Part shown: positions 5,287-29,599 of the stretch, one piece after another | Layout: every line of letters starts with the position of its first letter | Numbering within the stretch: the first letter of the stretch is position 1 | Origin: Sedimentibacter saalensis | Lineage (GTDB): Bacteria; Bacillota; Clostridia; Tissierellales; Sedimentibacteraceae | DNA: 64,000 nt | Reading direction: 5' to 3' | Assembly (NCBI RefSeq): GCF_007830175.1 | Contig: NZ_VLKH01000005.1 | Coordinates: 1 to 64,000, forward strand | Position numbers and translations under genes: made by a program | The notes under the pieces: model-generated | Database searches by the model: none | What the model was told of the DNA's origin: nothing | Seen by the model: the letters and a program-made list of their open reading frames with translations, nothing else

Positions 5287-5309
5287 ATGTCTCAACTATG
5301 TTGAGGCAT
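5287..5309 (+). other. Ten-bp hairpin between ftsH and spmA
   Basis: ATGTCTCAAC (5287-5296) pairs with GTTGAGGCAT (5300-5309), one U-G pair, with a 3-base loop, and is followed by a T-rich stretch. It could be the real ftsH terminator. It would bury the ATG at 5308, arguing against that codon as the spmA start. Confidence 0.5.
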
Positions 5310-5343
5310 GTTATTTATTAATGATTATTGCGGGGTTGATTTC

Positions 5344-5916
5344 TTGAGGAAATTGTGGATTGGTTTAATTTTCATGGGTATATTTTTTTCTTTTGCCAAT
5401 GGCAGGCCAGAGGTGCTTACAGATGTGCTTTTGTTTGACCTGCAAAAGGCAGTTGATCTTATAATAAGCCTGGTTCCTGTTATGGCGTTCTGGACAGGTA
5501 TGATGCGTATTGTGGAAAAATCAGGAATTCTAAATAAAATATCTAAATTTTTAAGGCCTGCAGTCAGGTTTTTATTCAAGGAAGTCCAAAATGACACGAA
5601 TGCTGTTAATGCAATAGTTATGACTATTGCTGCAAATATGCTTGGTATTGGTAATTCTGCCACAGCCTTTGGTATAAAGGCAATGCAGGAAATGCAAAAA
5701 ATTAACAGTGATAAAAAAACAGCAAACAATGCAATGTGTATGTTTTTGATTATTAACATGTCTTCAATACAGCTTATTCCATTAAGCATCATAAAATTAA
5801 GAGCAGATTCAGGAGCCTCAGTTCCTGCGGATATTATGCTTCCTACTATTGCTGCAACAACATTTTCTACAATTGTAGCTGTTATGCTTGCTAAATATTA
5901 TGAAAGGAAAATGTGA
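5344..5916 (+). CDS. spmA: Spore maturation protein A
   Basis: SpmA and SpmB are membrane proteins of the nucleoside-recognition (Gate) fold needed for full spore core dehydration in Bacillus. The protein has several membrane helices and the conserved segments FWTGMMRIVEKSGIL and GIGNSATAFGIKAM. I place the start at TTG 5344 (190 residues, MRKLWIG...), since SpmA proteins begin with a short leader just before the first helix and GGGG lies eight bases upstream; an ATG at 5308 in the same frame would add 12 residues but sits inside a hairpin. The gene is followed directly by spmB. Confidence 0.87.
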   Translation: MRKLWIGLIFMGIFFSFANGRPEVLTDVLLFDLQKAVDLIISLVPVMAFWTGMMRIVEKSGILNKISKFLRPAVRFLFKEVQNDTNAVNAIVMTIAANMLGIGNSATAFGIKAMQEMQKINSDKKTANNAMCMFLIINMSSIQLIPLSIIKLRADSGASVPADIMLPTIAATTFSTIVAVMLAKYYERKM

Positions 5917-5917
5917 A

Positions 5918-6436
5918 ATGAATTTTTCTGATTTAATCATGCCCTTTGTTGTGGGCGGAATTCTTTTTTATGGAATTATTGCGGATGTAGACATATATTC
6001 TGCATTTATTGAAGGGGCGATGGATGGAGCAAAATCAGCATTTAAAGTATTTCCTTACATACTGGCAGTTATATTTGCAATAAATTTGTTTATTCATTCC
6101 GGGGCGGAAGAATTTATTGTGAGTATGTTAAGGCCTGTAACGGATATTTTGGGATTTCCTCCGGAACTTCTGTCCCTGGCTGTTATTAAACCATTATCAG
6201 GAGGAGGGTCATTGGGGGTTTTTCAATCTATACTGGACAATTATGGAGCGGATTCTTTTATTGGAAGGAGTGCCTCTATACTGATGGGTTCATCTGAAAC
6301 TATTTTTTATACAACTGCAGTGTACTTTGGTGCTGTTGGCATAACAAACACAAGACACACAGTCAAGGTGGGGCTTATGGCCCACGGCGCTTCCATATTT
6401 GCTGCGCTGGTTGTGGGAAGACTCATGTTTATGTAA
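5918..6436 (+). CDS. spmB: Spore maturation protein B
   Basis: The second Gate-fold partner of the SpmAB pair, 172 residues, membrane-embedded throughout, with family segments FKVFPYILAVIFAI, IKPLSGGGSLGVFQ and MGSSETIFYTTAVYFG. The frame is open from 5888, but the ATG at 5918 has AAAGGA nine bases upstream and begins one base after the spmA stop, so it is chosen as the start. Translational coupling with spmA is likely. Its presence, with cwlD and a SpoIID-domain gene nearby, points to an endospore former. Confidence 0.9.
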   Translation: MNFSDLIMPFVVGGILFYGIIADVDIYSAFIEGAMDGAKSAFKVFPYILAVIFAINLFIHSGAEEFIVSMLRPVTDILGFPPELLSLAVIKPLSGGGSLGVFQSILDNYGADSFIGRSASILMGSSETIFYTTAVYFGAVGITNTRHTVKVGLMAHGASIFAALVVGRLMFM

Positions 6437-7024
6437 TTATTTTACGATTTTACGTGACTTTTTTCCTTCAAGCAGGTCCTGCCAAAATGCAAATACGCCT
6501 GCCAGCAAAAAAACATCGCCAACACTAATGGTCTTGGAAAAAGGATAGGGAGAAGGAATGGTTATGATGTCGCAAAGAAATTTGAATTTTGTTTTGTCTG
6601 TAAGAAGAGAATGTATTAAATCCTGTCCTGTCTGAAGATACAGTCTTTTAGCTTCAACATCTCCTAGAACATCAGAAACAAAGACGGGCATCTTAAAACC
6701 ATTTGAAGCAATTGCTATGAAATTAAGCAATGTTCCAATAAAGAAAAGCATCATGTAAGACTTTTTTATGTTTATTGCAGCTACATAAAAAATAGCAAAA
6801 TAAATCAGCCAGCTAAGTGAAAGATACCTTAACAAGCTGCTGCTGGGAAACCTTTTAAACAAAAATTGAGCAGTAATTTCTATTACTGCTGTCAATATTA
6901 ATAATTTGTAGCCCTTTATCTCGAAATTTCGATTAGTGATATCAGGACTTTTTTTTGTTGCTATTAAAATTAGTATTGCAATTAAAATTGATAAAATGGA
7001 TATCAATATTATTTCTGAAATCAT
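6437..7024 (-). CDS. DUF5317-like membrane protein of unknown function
   Basis: A 195-residue protein with about five membrane helices (near 5-23, 43-60, 68-85, 92-110, 165-182) and a loop containing NGFKMPV, a repeated aspartate/leucine stretch and a C-terminal SVGDVFLLAG motif. The pattern recalls the DUF5317 family, which I recognise only from such motifs; no function is known to me. It is the last gene of a four-ORF minus-strand group, nine bases after the HD-GYP gene, so it probably works with that signalling protein. It converges on spmB with no space between the stop codons. Confidence 0.65.
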   Translation of the reverse strand: MISEIILISILSILIAILILIATKKSPDITNRNFEIKGYKLLILTAVIEITAQFLFKRFPSSSLLRYLSLSWLIYFAIFYVAAINIKKSYMMLFFIGTLLNFIAIASNGFKMPVFVSDVLGDVEAKRLYLQTGQDLIHSLLTDKTKFKFLCDIITIPSPYPFSKTISVGDVFLLAGVFAFWQDLLEGKKSRKIVK

Positions 7025-7033
7025 AATACACCT

Positions 7034-8347
7034 TTATTCAGATAAGCTAAAATATGTTGCCTTTAAAGCAATTATTGCATCATCCACTATGTCTGGATTA
7101 AACTGTGTTCCAGCATTTATTTTTATTTCATTGAGTGCTGTTTCAAGGCTTAGTGAATGTCTGTATGGTCTGTTGGTTGTCATGGCGTCAAAGGAATCTG
7201 CAATTGTAAGAATTGAAGTTTCCAACGGAATTTTATCATGGTCCAAACCGTCAGGATAGCCTCTTCCGTCATTCCTTTCGTGGTGATGTCTTATTATTTC
7301 TGTAATGTTTGAAAGATAGCTTAAATCTGAAATTATTGTTGCTCCTATTTCAGGATGAGATTTGATAGTGTCAAATTCTTCTTTTTCAAGCTTTCCATCC
7401 TTGTTAAGAATCTTCTTGTCAATTCCTATTTTGCCTATGTCATGTAACAGGGCGGCACTCTTTATTAAATCAATTTTGCCTTGCGGAAGACCAAGTTGTT
7501 TTGCAATTGCTTCGGAATAAGCACCAACTCTCATGGAATGACCGCTGGTATACGGGTCGCTTGCTTCTATGGCTCGTACAAGGACATTCATGGTGTCAAA
7601 ATAATTTTTGCGCATGTCTATGTACAATTTGAATGTGTATCTTGCAAATAAAAGTGGAATGAAGAACAAAAGCATTCCGCCTGTTCCGTAGCTATAAAAT
7701 GCAAAAGCAAGTATTATGCCTAAAAGACTTACAAGCAATATGTTAATTAGCATTCCATAAAAACTACTTTTCCATATGTTTGAAAATTTTTCTTTTAATA
7801 ATATAGCCATTAACACTGACATGCAAAAAGTGTTTAACAAAATATAAACAATTAATGCTGCAATGCCTGCTACCGGATTGTAAAATACAAATCTTACATT
7901 AAGGAGATTGTCTACAACAACATATGCTAATCCAGCTATGCCTGTATTAATAAAATATTGGCTTATATTAAAGATTGTTTTATAAGGTGGATTATTAAAT
8001 ATATGAACTCTTCCTTTGCCGTCAACGTAGGGACATCTGAACGCTACACCAGCTGCCATTACAACGGCAGCAATCAGGGGGTTTGTCAAGATTATTGCAG
8101 TAAATGCCAATGCTGTGCTGACTGATATGGCACCTATTTTAGGCAACGGTATTAGAAATGTCTCTGCTACGGCTGATAATACGCAGAAAACCGTAAGCAA
8201 AGTATAATCTTCAATTGTATACATTTCAAAAAAATTAATCAATAACATTACAGCAATGGATGCTAACAATGTTATGTATACATATAATTTTATATTAATT
8301 TTTTGTTTTTCTAGATTATTATTCATTGTACTTACACCATCTACCAT
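7034..8347 (-). CDS. Membrane-anchored HD-GYP phosphodiesterase
   Basis: HD-GYP proteins hydrolyse cyclic di-GMP or related dinucleotides. Here about 215 N-terminal residues form a multi-helix membrane sensor domain of MASE type, followed by an HD-GYP domain (about 235-430) with the full metal-site set: HSMRVG, HDIGK, HPEIG, and HHERNDGRGYPDGL. The catalytic motifs are intact, so activity is expected. The start ATG at 8347 follows AGAGGT; an in-frame ATG seven codons later is possible. The gene lies between a 25-residue peptide ORF and a DUF5317-like gene, a setting that suggests the membrane domain senses something made or handled by its neighbours. Confidence 0.85.
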   Translation of the reverse strand: MVDGVSTMNNNLEKQKINIKLYVYITLLASIAVMLLINFFEMYTIEDYTLLTVFCVLSAVAETFLIPLPKIGAISVSTALAFTAIILTNPLIAAVVMAAGVAFRCPYVDGKGRVHIFNNPPYKTIFNISQYFINTGIAGLAYVVVDNLLNVRFVFYNPVAGIAALIVYILLNTFCMSVLMAILLKEKFSNIWKSSFYGMLINILLVSLLGIILAFAFYSYGTGGMLLFFIPLLFARYTFKLYIDMRKNYFDTMNVLVRAIEASDPYTSGHSMRVGAYSEAIAKQLGLPQGKIDLIKSAALLHDIGKIGIDKKILNKDGKLEKEEFDTIKSHPEIGATIISDLSYLSNITEIIRHHHERNDGRGYPDGLDHDKIPLETSILTIADSFDAMTTNRPYRHSLSLETALNEIKINAGTQFNPDIVDDAIIALKATYFSLSE

Positions 8348-8377
8348 TTTTTAACCTCTATATTTCTATATAATGAA

Positions 8378-8569
8378 GGGCTGACAAATGATCAATTAAT
8401 TTTTATAGCCAGCTGATGCTTGCGCCTGCAGCCAATACCAAAGATACTAAAGAAGCTATTATAGGCATTAATTTTTTCATGGGAATCCTCCGACAGTTAG
8501 TCTCTGCTCGGTTCGCTATTAGAACAGGAAGGATCCGCTACGCTAGTTTTGAAATATTTTAGTCAGCCC
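8378..8569 (-). ncRNA. Candidate structured leader RNA around the micropeptide ORF
   Basis: On the minus-strand transcript GGGCUGAC (8569-8562) can pair perfectly with GUCAGCCC (8385-8378), enclosing the whole micropeptide ORF and 80 bases of leader. Inside, CUGUUC/GAGCAG can form a 6-bp hairpin, and GGAUCCUUCC can pair at 8 of 10 positions with the micropeptide ribosome site GGAGGAUUCC, hiding it. No known riboswitch class was recognised; cyclic di-GMP riboswitch cores were looked for and not found. Confidence 0.35.
8403..8480 (-). CDS. 25-residue hydrophobic signal-peptide-like micropeptide
   Basis: A tiny ORF with an ideal GGAGG site six bases before its ATG encodes a peptide that begins MKKLMPIIASLVSLV and ends AAGASISWL. 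A basic N-terminus, a hydrophobic core and an AGA site look like a complete signal peptide with five residues left over (SISWL). It could be a secreted pheromone precursor or a small membrane protein. It lies between an unknown gene and the HD-GYP gene, all on the minus strand. The ORF and its ribosome site are seen; secretion or signalling is inference. Confidence 0.55.
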   Translation of the reverse strand: MKKLMPIIASLVSLVLAAGASISWL

Positions 8570-8571
8570 GA

Positions 8572-9195
8572 TCATTCTTTTATATATAAACAGATTTTTC
8601 TGTTTATAGCATTTAATGTTGCTTTTATTGTAGAGTCAATTTTGTTTGTTGTAACTATGGAGGAACCGATGAGAACATTTTCCTTCCCGTGGTCTATTTG
8701 AGTTATTGCTGCTACCATTACGTCTTTGCCTGCAACTTTGGCAGTCTGTATGTCTTCTACAATGAAGCAGTCAAGGTCTATGGCTTTTTTTATAGAATCC
8801 AGTGTAGATAAAGCAGCAACCATGAGTGTGTTTTTTTCTGTTTTAATTCCTTCAGCTTGTCCTGTATATTCCTTTTCATCCCAGGAAAGCTTTGTGTTTA
8901 TTTTTATTCTGTCAGAAGAAGTTTCATTTGTGTAACCGTCATACAACAGCCTGAAATCAGTGTTTATTGAAATGTTTTTATTGATTTGTGCAACACTTAT
9001 AATTTTATAATCCACATCTAAATTAAAATGAGACAACAAAGCTGTTCTGATATCACGTGATATTTGCTTTGAATGTCTGCTACTGTCAGACAGCACATGT
9101 ATTTCGCTTATATTGTTGTTTGCATCAGAAATAATTTTACACGACATGACAGATTTAATATTGGCTAAAAAATACTCCACTTCATCAAAATTCAT
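8572..9195 (-). CDS. Unrecognised 207-residue protein, first gene of the HD-GYP locus
   Basis: I do not recognise a family. The protein is soluble, with no signal or membrane helix. Residues 1-75 look like an alpha/beta domain with the pattern EIHVLSDSSRHSKQISRDI and DVDYKIISVAQ. Residues 100-205 look like a second alpha/beta domain (TLMVAALSTLDSIKKAI, KDVMVAAITQI, IKATLNAINRKICLY), faintly like the regulatory domain of 2-isopropylmalate synthase. GGAGG precedes the ATG and a good promoter lies just upstream. It leads an operon with a micropeptide, an HD-GYP protein and a DUF5317-like protein. Confidence 0.75.
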   Translation of the reverse strand: MNFDEVEYFLANIKSVMSCKIISDANNNISEIHVLSDSSRHSKQISRDIRTALLSHFNLDVDYKIISVAQINKNISINTDFRLLYDGYTNETSSDRIKINTKLSWDEKEYTGQAEGIKTEKNTLMVAALSTLDSIKKAIDLDCFIVEDIQTAKVAGKDVMVAAITQIDHGKENVLIGSSIVTTNKIDSTIKATLNAINRKICLYIKE

Positions 9196-9228: not shown

Positions 9229-9257
9229 AGTATAATACACATTTCGCATATTTTCAA
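9229..9257 (-). promoter_or_regulatory. Promoter of the HD-GYP locus
   Basis: On the minus strand TTGAAA (9257-9252), 17 bases, then TATACT (9234-9229), about 35 bases before the 207-residue gene. An inverted repeat TATACT/AGTATA (9213-9218 and 9229-9234) overlaps the -10 box. Confidence 0.65.
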
Positions 9258-9352: not shown

Positions 9353-10069
9353 TTAAATTTCGTTGAAATATTTCATAAGTCCTGTATATATTGCCCAGGC
9401 TGTTTTTTCCTGGTATTCATCAGATACAAGTTTTTGCTCTTCAGCTGGATTGGATAAAAATCCACATTCAATTAATAAAACAGTGTTTTTTGTATCATCC
9501 ATTATTTTTATATCTTGTTTAATTTGTGGTACGCGCTGGTTTTCCGGATCAAGGATTGTTTTCATACTGTCCTGTAAAATGAAGGCTGCTGCCTTTCCAT
9601 ACTCATTATTTTTTTGGTAAAAAACATGAGAACCATAATATTGTTGTTGTGGAAATGCATTTAAATGTATGGATACAACTATATCAGCATTTGATTTGTT
9701 TATTGTGCTCACTCTGTTTTTCAAGTCTTCGTTTTTCTTGTCTCTGATTGTATCTGATGCTGATGAATAAAGACCCGTATCATCATATCTTGTCATTTCA
9801 ACTTCAAAACCGCTTCCTTCAAGAAATGTCATGAGCTTTTTTGATATCTCAAGATTAATTGGTGCTTCTCCTATATGTAGGCTTCCGCTTGCACCCTGAT
9901 CGATGCCCCCATGCCCTGGATCTATGAGAATTTTTATTTTTGAGAGCTTTTCACCTGTTCCATTGATTGTTTCGCTGGTAATTCCTATATTTGAAAATAA
10001 TATCAGCAAGGCTGTGATTATCAAAGCAATTGAAAATACTATATTTACTTTTTTAAATAATTCTTCCAT
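9353..10069 (-). CDS. cwlD: N-acetylmuramoyl-L-alanine amidase, CwlD type
   Basis: CwlD removes the peptide side chain from muramic acid during spore cortex synthesis so that muramic lactam can form. The 238 residues hold an N-terminal membrane/signal segment (about 12-30) and an Amidase_3 domain with the zinc ligands in DPGHGGIDQGASG, the glutamate in GEAPINLEISKK, the histidine in VSIHLNAFP, and the catalytic glutamate in VLLIECGFLSNP. Length and the absence of cell-wall-binding repeats match CwlD rather than vegetative amidases. GGAGG precedes the ATG. It is monocistronic, with a terminator. Confidence 0.88.
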   Translation of the reverse strand: MEELFKKVNIVFSIALIITALLILFSNIGITSETINGTGEKLSKIKILIDPGHGGIDQGASGSLHIGEAPINLEISKKLMTFLEGSGFEVEMTRYDDTGLYSSASDTIRDKKNEDLKNRVSTINKSNADIVVSIHLNAFPQQQYYGSHVFYQKNNEYGKAAAFILQDSMKTILDPENQRVPQIKQDIKIMDDTKNTVLLIECGFLSNPAEEQKLVSDEYQEKTAWAIYTGLMKYFNEI

Positions 10070-10166: not shown

Positions 10167-10183
10167 GAGCTCAACTAAATATT

Positions 10184-10332
10184 AAAGTTTGGTAACTATA
10201 GTTTTAAAAGGGAAAACAGTAAAATCTGTTACAGCCCCCGCTACTGTGAAAGGTGATAAGGCTCAAAACCACTGTGATAAACGGGAAGGTGAGCTTTAGA
10301 TGAACCGATAGTCAGGAGACCTGCCAAATTTT
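10184..10332 (+). promoter_or_regulatory. Cobalamin (AdoCbl-type) riboswitch of the cbi operon
   Basis: The leader contains the conserved core CAGCCCCCGCTACTGTGA and the 3' B12 box AGTCAGGAGACCTGCC (about 10309-10325). TTTGG at 10188-10192 pairs with CCAAA at 10324-10328 to close the outer helix. With the terminator just downstream, this is a transcriptional OFF switch: high cobalamin should stop transcription before cbiD. Confidence 0.95.
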
Positions 10333-10393
10333 GATTTGAAGATTTTCGGGAGGATTATCTTAAATGTTAAAGTATATTTACTGTACATACATG

Positions 10394-29383: not shown

Positions 29384-29433
29384 CCGAATTTACTGCTATT
29401 TATCACTTGTCCAATCTTCCGTTGGAGTGAATA

Positions 29434-29581
29434 TTTTATGCAGGTCTTCTGGCTTGCACATGGCATTGCTTTCTCCTTCCCTTAACAGTGGCTATGAAAA
29501 CAACTAAATGCGTACAGCGGCGGGACCGCGCAGGATTTTAACCTGCTTCCCTCTTAGCTGCCGATATGGCAGAACATAAAA
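29434..29581 (-). promoter_or_regulatory. Cobalamin riboswitch of nrdDG
   Basis: Read on the minus strand: GGGAAGCAGGTTAAAATCC, GCGCGGTCCCGCCGCTGT, CCACTGTTAAGGGAAGG and the B12 box AGCCAGAAGACCTGC (29454-29440). TTTTATG (29581-29575) pairs perfectly with CATAAAA (29440-29434) as the closing helix. The element is complete, unlike that before btuF. Confidence 0.93.
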
Positions 29582-29599
29582 CTGTATTCAATTATAATG

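Follow-up and report, generated by a model that had tools for sequence, protein, structure and literature searches.

A micropeptide gene enclosed by a conserved RNA element in a clostridial MASE9/HD-GYP operon

Introduction

What is the function of a 25-codon reading frame that stands directly 5' of the gene for a membrane HD-GYP protein? The question is raised by the window, by which we mean the whole 64,000-nucleotide stretch of Sedimentibacter saalensis DNA analysed here, in which u207, the 25-codon ORF, MASE9/HD-GYP and DUF5317 follow each other in this order on the minus strand. The arrangement of four same-strand ORFs noticed in the initial annotation is real and is confirmed at the coordinates given below, but a conserved RNA was overlooked. 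It combines a hairpin and UAGCGNA motifs with two helices, one located at the micropeptide's ribosome site or adjoining it and an outer one enclosing the whole ORF, and is the strongest feature of the locus. In the open-licence PMC literature we found no paper describing the locus, an earlier mention being possible in supplementary lists of RNAs or short ORFs (e.g. PMC6429828), and likewise nothing on DUF5317 by itself and nothing joining MASE9 with HD-GYP.

Results and discussion

Proteins of the operon

The first gene, u207 (8572..9195, minus strand, as are all features of the operon below), is preceded by a promoter-like site (TTGAAA-17 nt-TATACT, 9229..9257, 10/12 matches). The proposal that one promoter leads into all four ORFs is borne out to the extent that such a site is present, but this is a match from a consensus scan only, and 10 promoter-like sites were found in the region against 5.5 expected from shuffling. 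A terminator-like hairpin between u207 and the CwlD-like gene (9341-9304) is likewise a consensus match only. u207 encodes a soluble protein for which no Pfam family exceeds its cut-off, and in this sense it is unrecognised as previously stated; its C-terminal half is however of a known shape. The AF2 model (pLDDT 91.5) consists of a beta-beta-alpha-beta N-terminal domain followed by a (beta-beta-beta-alpha)x2 half similar to the LeuA/citramalate synthase regulatory domain (Foldseek 3hps/1sr9/3f6g, probability 1.00). The corresponding profile, PF08502 LeuA_dimer, gives 12.7 bits with the u207 of the window, below the cut-off of 24.9, and 8/43 u207 members match it weakly if E values as high as 0.5 are admitted (best 0.0024); judged by its predicted structure, u207 is shaped like LeuA_dimer and not a member of it. 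The fold of the C-terminal half is common to both, but u207 lacks the catalytic synthase domain and has the extra N-terminal domain, in which K43, Q44, R47, D48, S67, A69 and Q70 are invariant.

The HD-GYP gene (7034..8347) encodes a MASE9 membrane sensor and an HD-GYP phosphodiesterase domain. Pfam HD_5 matches at 1.3e-36 with HD also over its cut-off, MASE9 (PF20972) scores 29.4 bits against a cut-off of 24.3, and 68-69 of the 69 HD-GYP sequences in the alignment, the window's included, have H270, H302, D303, K306, H331, H355, H356 and D384, in agreement with the earlier description of a membrane HD-GYP protein with intact catalytic residues. The enzyme would be expected to degrade a bacterial second messenger. 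The last gene (6437..7024) encodes a DUF5317 membrane protein, as had been suspected (PF17248, 3.2e-31, 108.8 bits against a cut-off of 25), the AF2 model of which (pLDDT 89.9) has no match in the PDB. Its aspartates D152 and D170 (SxGD) are invariant (61/61), and these prompted the notion of a peptide-trimming intramembrane aspartyl protease, which stays speculative, the high-confidence model being without a PDB match.

Distribution in clostridia

Among 391 genomes of the class, u207 and the RNA coincide in 41 of 46, and the other five also carry the micropeptide ORF. In the 59 loci fetched from 74 genomes with a match to the RNA model, u207 is found 5' of the RNA in 59/59. HD-GYP is present in 56/59, and the remaining three loci are truncated at a contig end. 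DUF5317 follows HD-GYP in 61 of the 67 named loci having at least 700 nt behind HD-GYP. The relatives fetched were the best 80 of 463 matching one pattern. In many families the locus keeps the same operon position, with one good copy per genome, and named carriers are Thermotalea, Alkaliphilus, Caloranaerobacter and Geosporobacter. Two matches to covariance model R2 (see below) were taken as chance, namely a second match in genome G317 (E 0.009), which reads as coding sequence and has no micropeptide, and the match in G339 (E 0.038), which has neither u207 nor HD-GYP in the 2.5 kb fetched; a weak second match in locus L122 (24.7 bits) has no ORF.

The micropeptide is a real gene

In the window the micropeptide ORF (MKKLMPIIASLVSLVLAAGASISWL plus stop codon) occupies 8403..8480. 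Between u207 and HD-GYP, 150/153 loci contain a small, hydrophobic ORF provided with a ribosome site; the reverse strand gives 5/153, and shuffling of the intervals 12.0. The 153 loci, representing 122 distinct sequences, remained of 168 after 15 had been dropped for absence of u207 or HD-GYP from the stretch (L105 has no HD-GYP; the rest are cut by contig ends), and the three misses are L021, which has a run of N, and L083 and L088, which have shorter and less hydrophobic peptides. Furthermore, pooled dN/dS is 0.22 over 42 independent pairs from 109 distinct coding sequences. Contrary to what would have refuted the initial annotation, the ORF occupies the same place in relatives and is under purifying selection rather than subject to random substitutions or stops. 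We can conclude that the micropeptide is a real gene; it has no match in PADLOC or PHROGs, and the libraries searched contain no profile of its family.

Leader and tail of the peptide

The description of a signal-peptide-like leader with a five-residue remainder agrees well with the family at large. The peptide is usually 25 residues long, a leader of 20 residues occurs in 73/106 peptides and a tail of 5 in 77/106, and an xGA-type end of the leader is found in 106/115 distinct peptides, the nine others being six of Alkaliphilus type and three short ones, while K/R occurs within residues 2-6 in 109/115. These statistics stem from 115 distinct peptides extracted by script, excluding three cut by contig ends and those loci whose RNA escaped the text pattern (e.g. 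L044, L048, L050 and L080). Within the leader, small residues are found at -11 (99%), -8 (100%), -4 (96%) and -1 (100%), of which -4 and -1 are partly fixed by the anchor motif, and the small-residue moment peaks at 100 degrees; over columns -17 to -5, which leave out the anchor, a permutation test gives p 0.005. With the anchor columns included (-16 to -1) the period is not significant (p 0.18), which counts against reading the peptide as a membrane subunit, as do the peptides of L083 and L088 (20 residues) and L084 (19 residues), which have internal charges and are too short for a normal span. The tail contains W in 80/106 peptides.

It was proposed that the terminal pentapeptide is secreted and sensed by the membrane phosphodiesterase. 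In its general form this model takes the peptide for the precursor of a linear pheromone: cleavage and export would free its last 4-5 residues (SISWL here), which MASE9, DUF5317 or u207 would detect, and HD-GYP would in this way tie cell density to c-di-GMP. The prevailing 20-residue leader and 5-residue tail are in agreement with this notion, and KK followed by a hydrophobic stretch is likewise a trait of Rgg/ComR propeptides according to PMC9765709. Indeed the SHP/ComS pheromones of the RRNPPA systems resemble the present case in having a tiny gene for a KK-plus-hydrophobic peptide with a short hydrophobic C-terminal end beside a signalling gene, but the partner is here a membrane HD-GYP phosphodiesterase and not a cytosolic HTH/TPR receptor, the leader has small residues with a helix period, which a signal peptide could dispense with, and the ORF lies within a conserved RNA structure. 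No RRNPP-type receptor was found in a Pfam scan of the four products and three neighbours of the operon. The tail does have a higher pN per nonsynonymous site than the leader (0.175 versus 0.100), but its dN/dS is no higher (0.18 versus 0.20), because silent changes are also commoner in the tail, and there is in these ratios no sign of diversifying selection in the tail. A single tail pattern moreover dominates (aromatic at +2 in 79/106, W at +4 in 70/105) instead of strain-specific types.

The Alkaliphilus family bears on the matter from both sides, since in 7/10 of its loci the peptide has neither the basic start nor the xGA end expected of such a leader, yet these divergent peptides retain a W-containing end. 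Of the same seven loci, without KK and LAxGA, five are without DUF5317 and two have a diverged copy further on, whereas the three loci with the usual peptide keep an overlapping DUF5317. This link between peptide and DUF5317 rests on one clade and hence amounts to approximately one evolutionary event; L139 has the usual peptide and no adjacent DUF5317, which speaks against a subunit function. Coevolution with a receptor domain was undetectable by mutual information, where peptide and HD-GYP transmembrane columns account for 39 of the top 100 pairs with 40.8 expected (96 sequences), peptide and DUF5317 for 27 with 22.1 expected (53 sequences), which is no enrichment, and peptide and u207 are not enriched either. 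The lack of a signal is unfavourable to the pheromone and to a subunit alike. Peptide position -4 is linked to DUF5317 in several of the top-ranking pairs, but these are too weak to be used without a tree-aware test. All in all a secreted pentapeptide appears rather unlikely, and the evidence favours a membrane-resident regulatory micropeptide under RNA control.

The RNA element

The core of the RNA element (8480..8546) includes a conserved motif (UAGCGUAGCG, consensus UAGCGNAGCG, 8536..8545), which in the model is unpaired save for its last base and is found exactly as AGCGNAGCG in 83/101 distinct RNAs. It is followed by helix H1, the strands of which (GGAUCCUUC, 8528..8536, and GGAGGAUUC, 8483..8491) flank the hairpin H2 (CUGUUC/GAGCAG, 8504..8527) with UAGCGAA in its loop at 8512-8518; AGCG is found in this loop region in 98/101 distinct RNAs. 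The Shine-Dalgarno sequence GGAGG of the micropeptide (8487-8491) lies inside the 3' strand of H1. Outside Sedimentibacter, H1 mostly adjoins the ribosome site and does not cover all of it, which is a further point against a subunit made under such control.

In an alignment of 57 RNAs, 93.3% of cells are paired and 13/15 pairs change on both sides, as was seen in 0/500 shuffles, with 6/6 pairs of H2 and 7/9 of H1 varying on both sides. These counts, from alignment A6, lean towards model R1, since the protein search contributed 28/57 sequences, including the 13 that built R1, and R1 itself found the remaining 29/57. R1 was made from 13 sequences outside Sedimentibacter, with a structure set by us and not predicted, because the first MAFFT alignments misregistered the 3' strand of H1 in this genus; RNAalifold on alignment A3 recovered only H2 and two neighbouring pairs. 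R1 scores the RNA of the window at 32.8 bits, and R2, which was built from 57 sequences including that of the window, gives 58.8 bits (E 5.6e-11) and no other match in the window. In the model alignment four H1 pairs of the window RNA are non-standard, and Sedimentibacter pairs in a shifted register.

Around the whole ORF an outer helix, H0, is formed in the window by GGGCUGAC (8562..8569) and GUCAGCCC (8378..8385), the latter 17 nt past the micropeptide stop. Both H0 and H1 of the window appear when its sequence is folded singly. Such a helix is present in 104/114 distinct loci against 10/114 for a control region, failure being defined as more than 2/50 shuffles, and of the 10 failing loci four, in Sedimentibacter or a neighbour, do have a helix of 8 to 14 bp where it is expected. 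The 8-bp helix of the window is not significant singly (9/100 shuffles, 4/50 in a second test), and the fold of the window RNA shows no exceptional stability by itself (z -1.15); both being weak singly, the case rests on the alignment.

Since the ORF is directly 5' of HD-GYP, with conserved residues right up to the stop codon and an outer 3' arm mostly 2-36 nt past it, often within reach of the terminating ribosome, translation of the 25 codons and not its product could conceivably control HD-GYP by way of the outer helix or of ribosome arrest at the conserved end. This is improbable, as the helix period and the purifying selection over the whole ORF indicate a working product, the outer arm of the window leaves the HD-GYP ribosome site uncovered, and a nascent chain of 25 residues scarcely emerges from the ribosome exit tunnel.

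A hydrophobic single-helix peptide, a ribosome site located within or next to a helix and paired 5' and 3' ends of a mini-mRNA are also reminiscent of type I toxin mRNAs such as Fst/Ldr, hok and BsrG, where the membrane peptide would be silenced by the fold of its own mRNA; ribosome-site sequestration and membrane peptides are described for type I toxins in PMC8309996. The present locus differs in being embedded in an operon, at the same place across families and in a single good copy per genome, with conserved sequence-specific motifs and no known antisense RNA. Furthermore the peptide is unmatched in PADLOC and PHROGs, and no antitoxin RNA was found by the promoter scan, in which plus-strand matches to the consensus are candidates only. 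A toxin is therefore highly improbable.

Riboswitches and other cis-RNAs that sequester ribosome sites likewise combine conserved motifs with a helix where the ribosome binds for the following ORF, but the ORF sits here within the outer helix of the element. None of 4227 Rfam families matches the element in the window, where two cobalamin riboswitches at other positions were the only matches over gathering score, and none matches it in ten related loci even with E values as high as 5 admitted. The element is an RNA family with strong covariation that is absent from Rfam 15, and a peptide inside a conserved folded RNA, neither of them in the libraries searched, points to an unrecognised control device.

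A proposed function

We put at about even odds that the locus is a conserved clostridial operon in which a single-span membrane micropeptide is a small regulatory subunit of the MASE9/HD-GYP protein, together with DUF5317, its synthesis being set by RNA folding around the ORF. The UAGCGNA motifs might be recognised by a ligand or by a protein, for instance u207, whereby H1 would be opened or locked. The peptide, with KK at its start and an aromatic tail at the outer face, would be oriented N-in/C-out, and its stripe of small residues may pack onto one of the transmembrane helices in HD-GYP or DUF5317; more micropeptide would then change the output of the phosphodiesterase and thereby the level of c-di-GMP. 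The micropeptide would resemble the small single-span regulatory membrane proteins MgrB, KdpF and AcrZ in consisting of one hydrophobic helix, some dozens of residues long, that binds and tunes a membrane protein, but the partner would in this case be a c-di-GMP phosphodiesterase and a conserved RNA element would govern translation. More tentatively, and with appreciably less confidence, the RNA may be a new class that senses a ligand or u207 through UAGCGNA and frees translation of the micropeptide, which could act on the neighbouring c-di-GMP phosphodiesterase either as a switch in the membrane or as a cue after secretion, giving a clostridial relay from RNA to micropeptide to second messenger.

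Few HD-GYP enzymes have, to our knowledge, an established sensor input, and a micropeptide with a fixed place, a fixed RNA element and a fixed set of partners makes the question of HD-GYP input directly testable in named anaerobes.

The operon and the u207 protein

In the window the operon is found on the minus strand and comprises the four same-strand ORFs seen in the initial annotation, in the order u207, a soluble protein of 207 residues (8572-9195), the micropeptide ORF of 25 codons (8403-8480), a membrane HD-GYP protein (7034-8347; Pfam HD_5, HD and MASE9) and the membrane protein DUF5317 (6437-7024; Pfam DUF5317). u207 is likely the first gene, since consensus matches to a terminator-like hairpin (9341-9304) and a promoter-like site (9257-9229) are found ahead of it on the same strand. 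The setting looks like a sporulation neighbourhood, since the genes on either side of the operon encode two Gate-domain proteins reminiscent of the spore maturation proteins SpmA/SpmB (5308-6436, plus strand) and a CwlD-like amidase (9353-10069, minus strand; 211 bits against a cut-off of 221.55). Two cobalamin riboswitches are likewise matched by Rfam in the window, at 10173-10342 (plus strand, 103.6 bits) and 29422-29594 (minus strand, 95.5 bits), the former preceding genes that by eye resemble those of cobalamin biosynthesis.

The description of u207 as unrecognised holds in that Pfam has no family for it, nor for the micropeptide, and in that it falls below every curated cut-off in the profile libraries searched, but not as regards the shape of its C-terminal domain. 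The structure model (pLDDT 91.5) has two domains, the C-terminal one being similar to the regulatory domains of LeuA and citramalate synthase (Foldseek probability 1.00, best E 4.6e-5), while the N-terminal one may resemble the C-terminal domain of CzcD (probability 1.00, E 0.041); the domain to which each Foldseek match belongs was read from the match lengths. Double-stranded-RNA-binding domains make up five of the first ten matches (probability 0.87-0.96, low TM).

The micropeptide is a genuine gene

With the HD-GYP protein as query, at least 106 of 199 genomes from the order gave a match at a threshold of 1e-20, many of these matches being to the HD domain alone. The micropeptide is present in 27 of the 30 best HD-GYP loci, and in the other three the contig starts inside the HD-GYP gene (L011) or just before it (L009), or a run of N intervenes (L021). 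Across 153 loci, corresponding to 122 distinct sequences and left from 168 after removal of 15 in which u207 or HD-GYP is missing (L105) or cut off, u207 and HD-GYP have between them, in 150 cases, a hydrophobic ORF that is 18-36 codons long and has a ribosome site; the reverse strand gives 5 and shuffling of the intervals 12.0, so that the lack of any short ORF in related genomes, initially considered as grounds for dismissing the peptide, is not what is seen. Two of the three misses (L083 and L088) have a less hydrophobic version of 20 codons. Furthermore, the pooled dN/dS is 0.22 over 42 independent pairs from 109 distinct coding sequences, and in the same pairs it is 0.20 for the leader, which runs up to an xGA-type anchor, and 0.18 for the tail behind it. 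We can conclude that the micropeptide is a genuine gene.

An xxGA-type anchor occurs in 106 of 115 distinct peptides, K or R at residues 2-6 in 109 of the 115, and among anchored peptides a leader of 20 residues (73) and a tail of 5 (77) are commonest, with a W within the tail in 80. Counting back from the anchor, the hydrophobic part has small residues at -11 (99%), -8 (100%), -4 (96%) and -1 (100%), those at -4 and -1 being partly fixed by the choice of anchor. The moment of this pattern peaks at the alpha-helical angle of 100 degrees, and column permutation gave p values of 0.005 (-17 to -5), 0.013 (-13 to -4) and 0.18 (whole xxGA block included). Since this small-residue face is conserved across the phylum, the pattern suggests that the helix packs against a second helix in the membrane. 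In a peptide that served as a signal peptide and nothing more, hydrophobicity and a cleavage site would be conserved but no helix face, and the initial proposal of a secreted pentapeptide (SISWL) sensed by the phosphodiesterase is thus in our opinion unlikely; a coevolution test did not discriminate between the models.

A conserved RNA structure

A first covariance model, built from 13 sequences all outside the genus, matches 40 of 391 class genomes at a single place each, and a second, built from 57 realigned RNAs, matches 36 of 398 phylum genomes. The 57 RNAs have 93.3% paired cells (37-47% in slid controls) with 13 of 15 pairs changed on both sides, and none of 500 shuffles was equally good on any of five measures. 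This conserved RNA structure is located upstream of the micropeptide ORF. It consists of UAGCGNAGCG, helix H1, a hairpin (H2) whose loop contains UAGCGNA, and the start codon, the 3' strand of H1 being or adjoining the Shine-Dalgarno sequence. Among 101 distinct RNAs, 83 have an exact copy of AGCGNAGCG and 98 have AGCG in the region of the loop. An outer helix, H0, pairs the region before the element with that past the micropeptide stop codon, and among 114 distinct loci having sufficient flank no more than 2 of 50 shuffles equal it in 104 and none in 90, compared to 10 and 5 loci when the next 75 nt are used as a control. Folding the window sequence by itself recovers H0 (8 bp), H1 (9 bp, over GGAGG) and H2 (6 bp), with an unexceptional fold energy (z -1.15), and since H1 in the genus pairs in another register than in the model, four window H1 pairs appear non-standard there. 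No Rfam 15 family is matched at the element. In one genome a sub-threshold match to the Rfam Clostridiales-2 RNA (42.4 bits, gathering threshold 58.6) is found upstream of u207 (L024:358-440).

An ORF enclosed in this manner could be a leader ORF, a reading that we consider improbable beside the constraint on the peptide itself.

Co-occurrence of the four parts

Together the RNA models match 74 genomes, and in the best 59 loci, the window included, u207 is always on the 5' side of the RNA and HD-GYP is downstream in 56, the other three being cut by a contig end. Conversely, u207 has 463 relatives, and in the best 80 named loci the RNA is matched in 72; contig ends truncate three of the other eight, four have the micropeptide with what by eye is a diverged RNA, and the last (L105) has no RNA, micropeptide, HD-GYP or DUF5317 at this place. 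In this close relative (UBA4845) the other-strand sequence after u207, from L105:5612 onward, by eye resembles the SpmB-like gene that neighbours the operon in the window. In L146 the RNA stays with the micropeptide and HD-GYP rather than with u207, as some 950 nt separate it from u207 (5627-6582) and it is still directly before HD-GYP. From the one-to-one occurrence and the weak fold likenesses, we infer that u207 may bind the RNA.

Among the 391 class genomes 46 have u207, 42 have the RNA at E values of up to 0.1, and 41 have both; the five with u207 only have micropeptide, HD-GYP and DUF5317 on inspection, and the single RNA-only match is marginal. Given 46 of 391 genomes, the system is widespread yet not general.

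Of the 67 named loci whose sequence extends 700 nt or more past HD-GYP, 61 have DUF5317 there, which in L146 and L158 is 778-1263 nt away. The HD-GYP protein is present in 10 of 20 Alkaliphilus-family genomes, and in seven (among them L186, the same locus as L168) the peptide has about 21 residues, a W-containing end and neither basic start nor LAxGA. In five of these seven DUF5317 is absent behind HD-GYP and in the other two a diverged copy is found at a greater distance, the copies that remain in such genomes being elsewhere, whereas all three loci with the usual peptide retain an overlapping DUF5317. The leader motif is thus tied to DUF5317, in a contrast that amounts to about one evolutionary event and to which L139 is an exception. 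In the six loci of Alkaliphilus-type genomes that were inspected (L177-L179 and L181-L183), the DUF5317 copy found elsewhere is a paralogue beside a gene that by eye resembles the ribosome hibernation factor HPF. Five DUF5317 reading frames (L226-L229 and L165) have 534-584 aa, with a long, acidic and probably disordered extension that terminates in a basic, conserved stretch (ELMKKMKERKEKGYSLVQVKVGDK-type motif with FWKKDL at its end), which suggests a cytosolic docking end. A toxin-like role for the micropeptide seems highly improbable.

Possible function

RNAs that gate a ribosome site and membrane micropeptides are both known kinds, and SHP/ComS, MgrB, KdpF, AcrZ, hok and Fst served for comparison. 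No model in Pfam, NCBIfam, PHROGs or PADLOC matched the micropeptide, and in the portions of the literature on the locus and its analogues that were covered, PMC8309996, PMC9765709, PMC6429828 and PMC10903887 among them, no description was found. The reading we favour, at about even chances, is that the micropeptide regulates the HD-GYP/DUF5317 pair from within the membrane and is itself under RNA control. The RNA element would then control production of the micropeptide; a ligand of the RNA, a partner helix and an effect on c-di-GMP are what we infer in addition.
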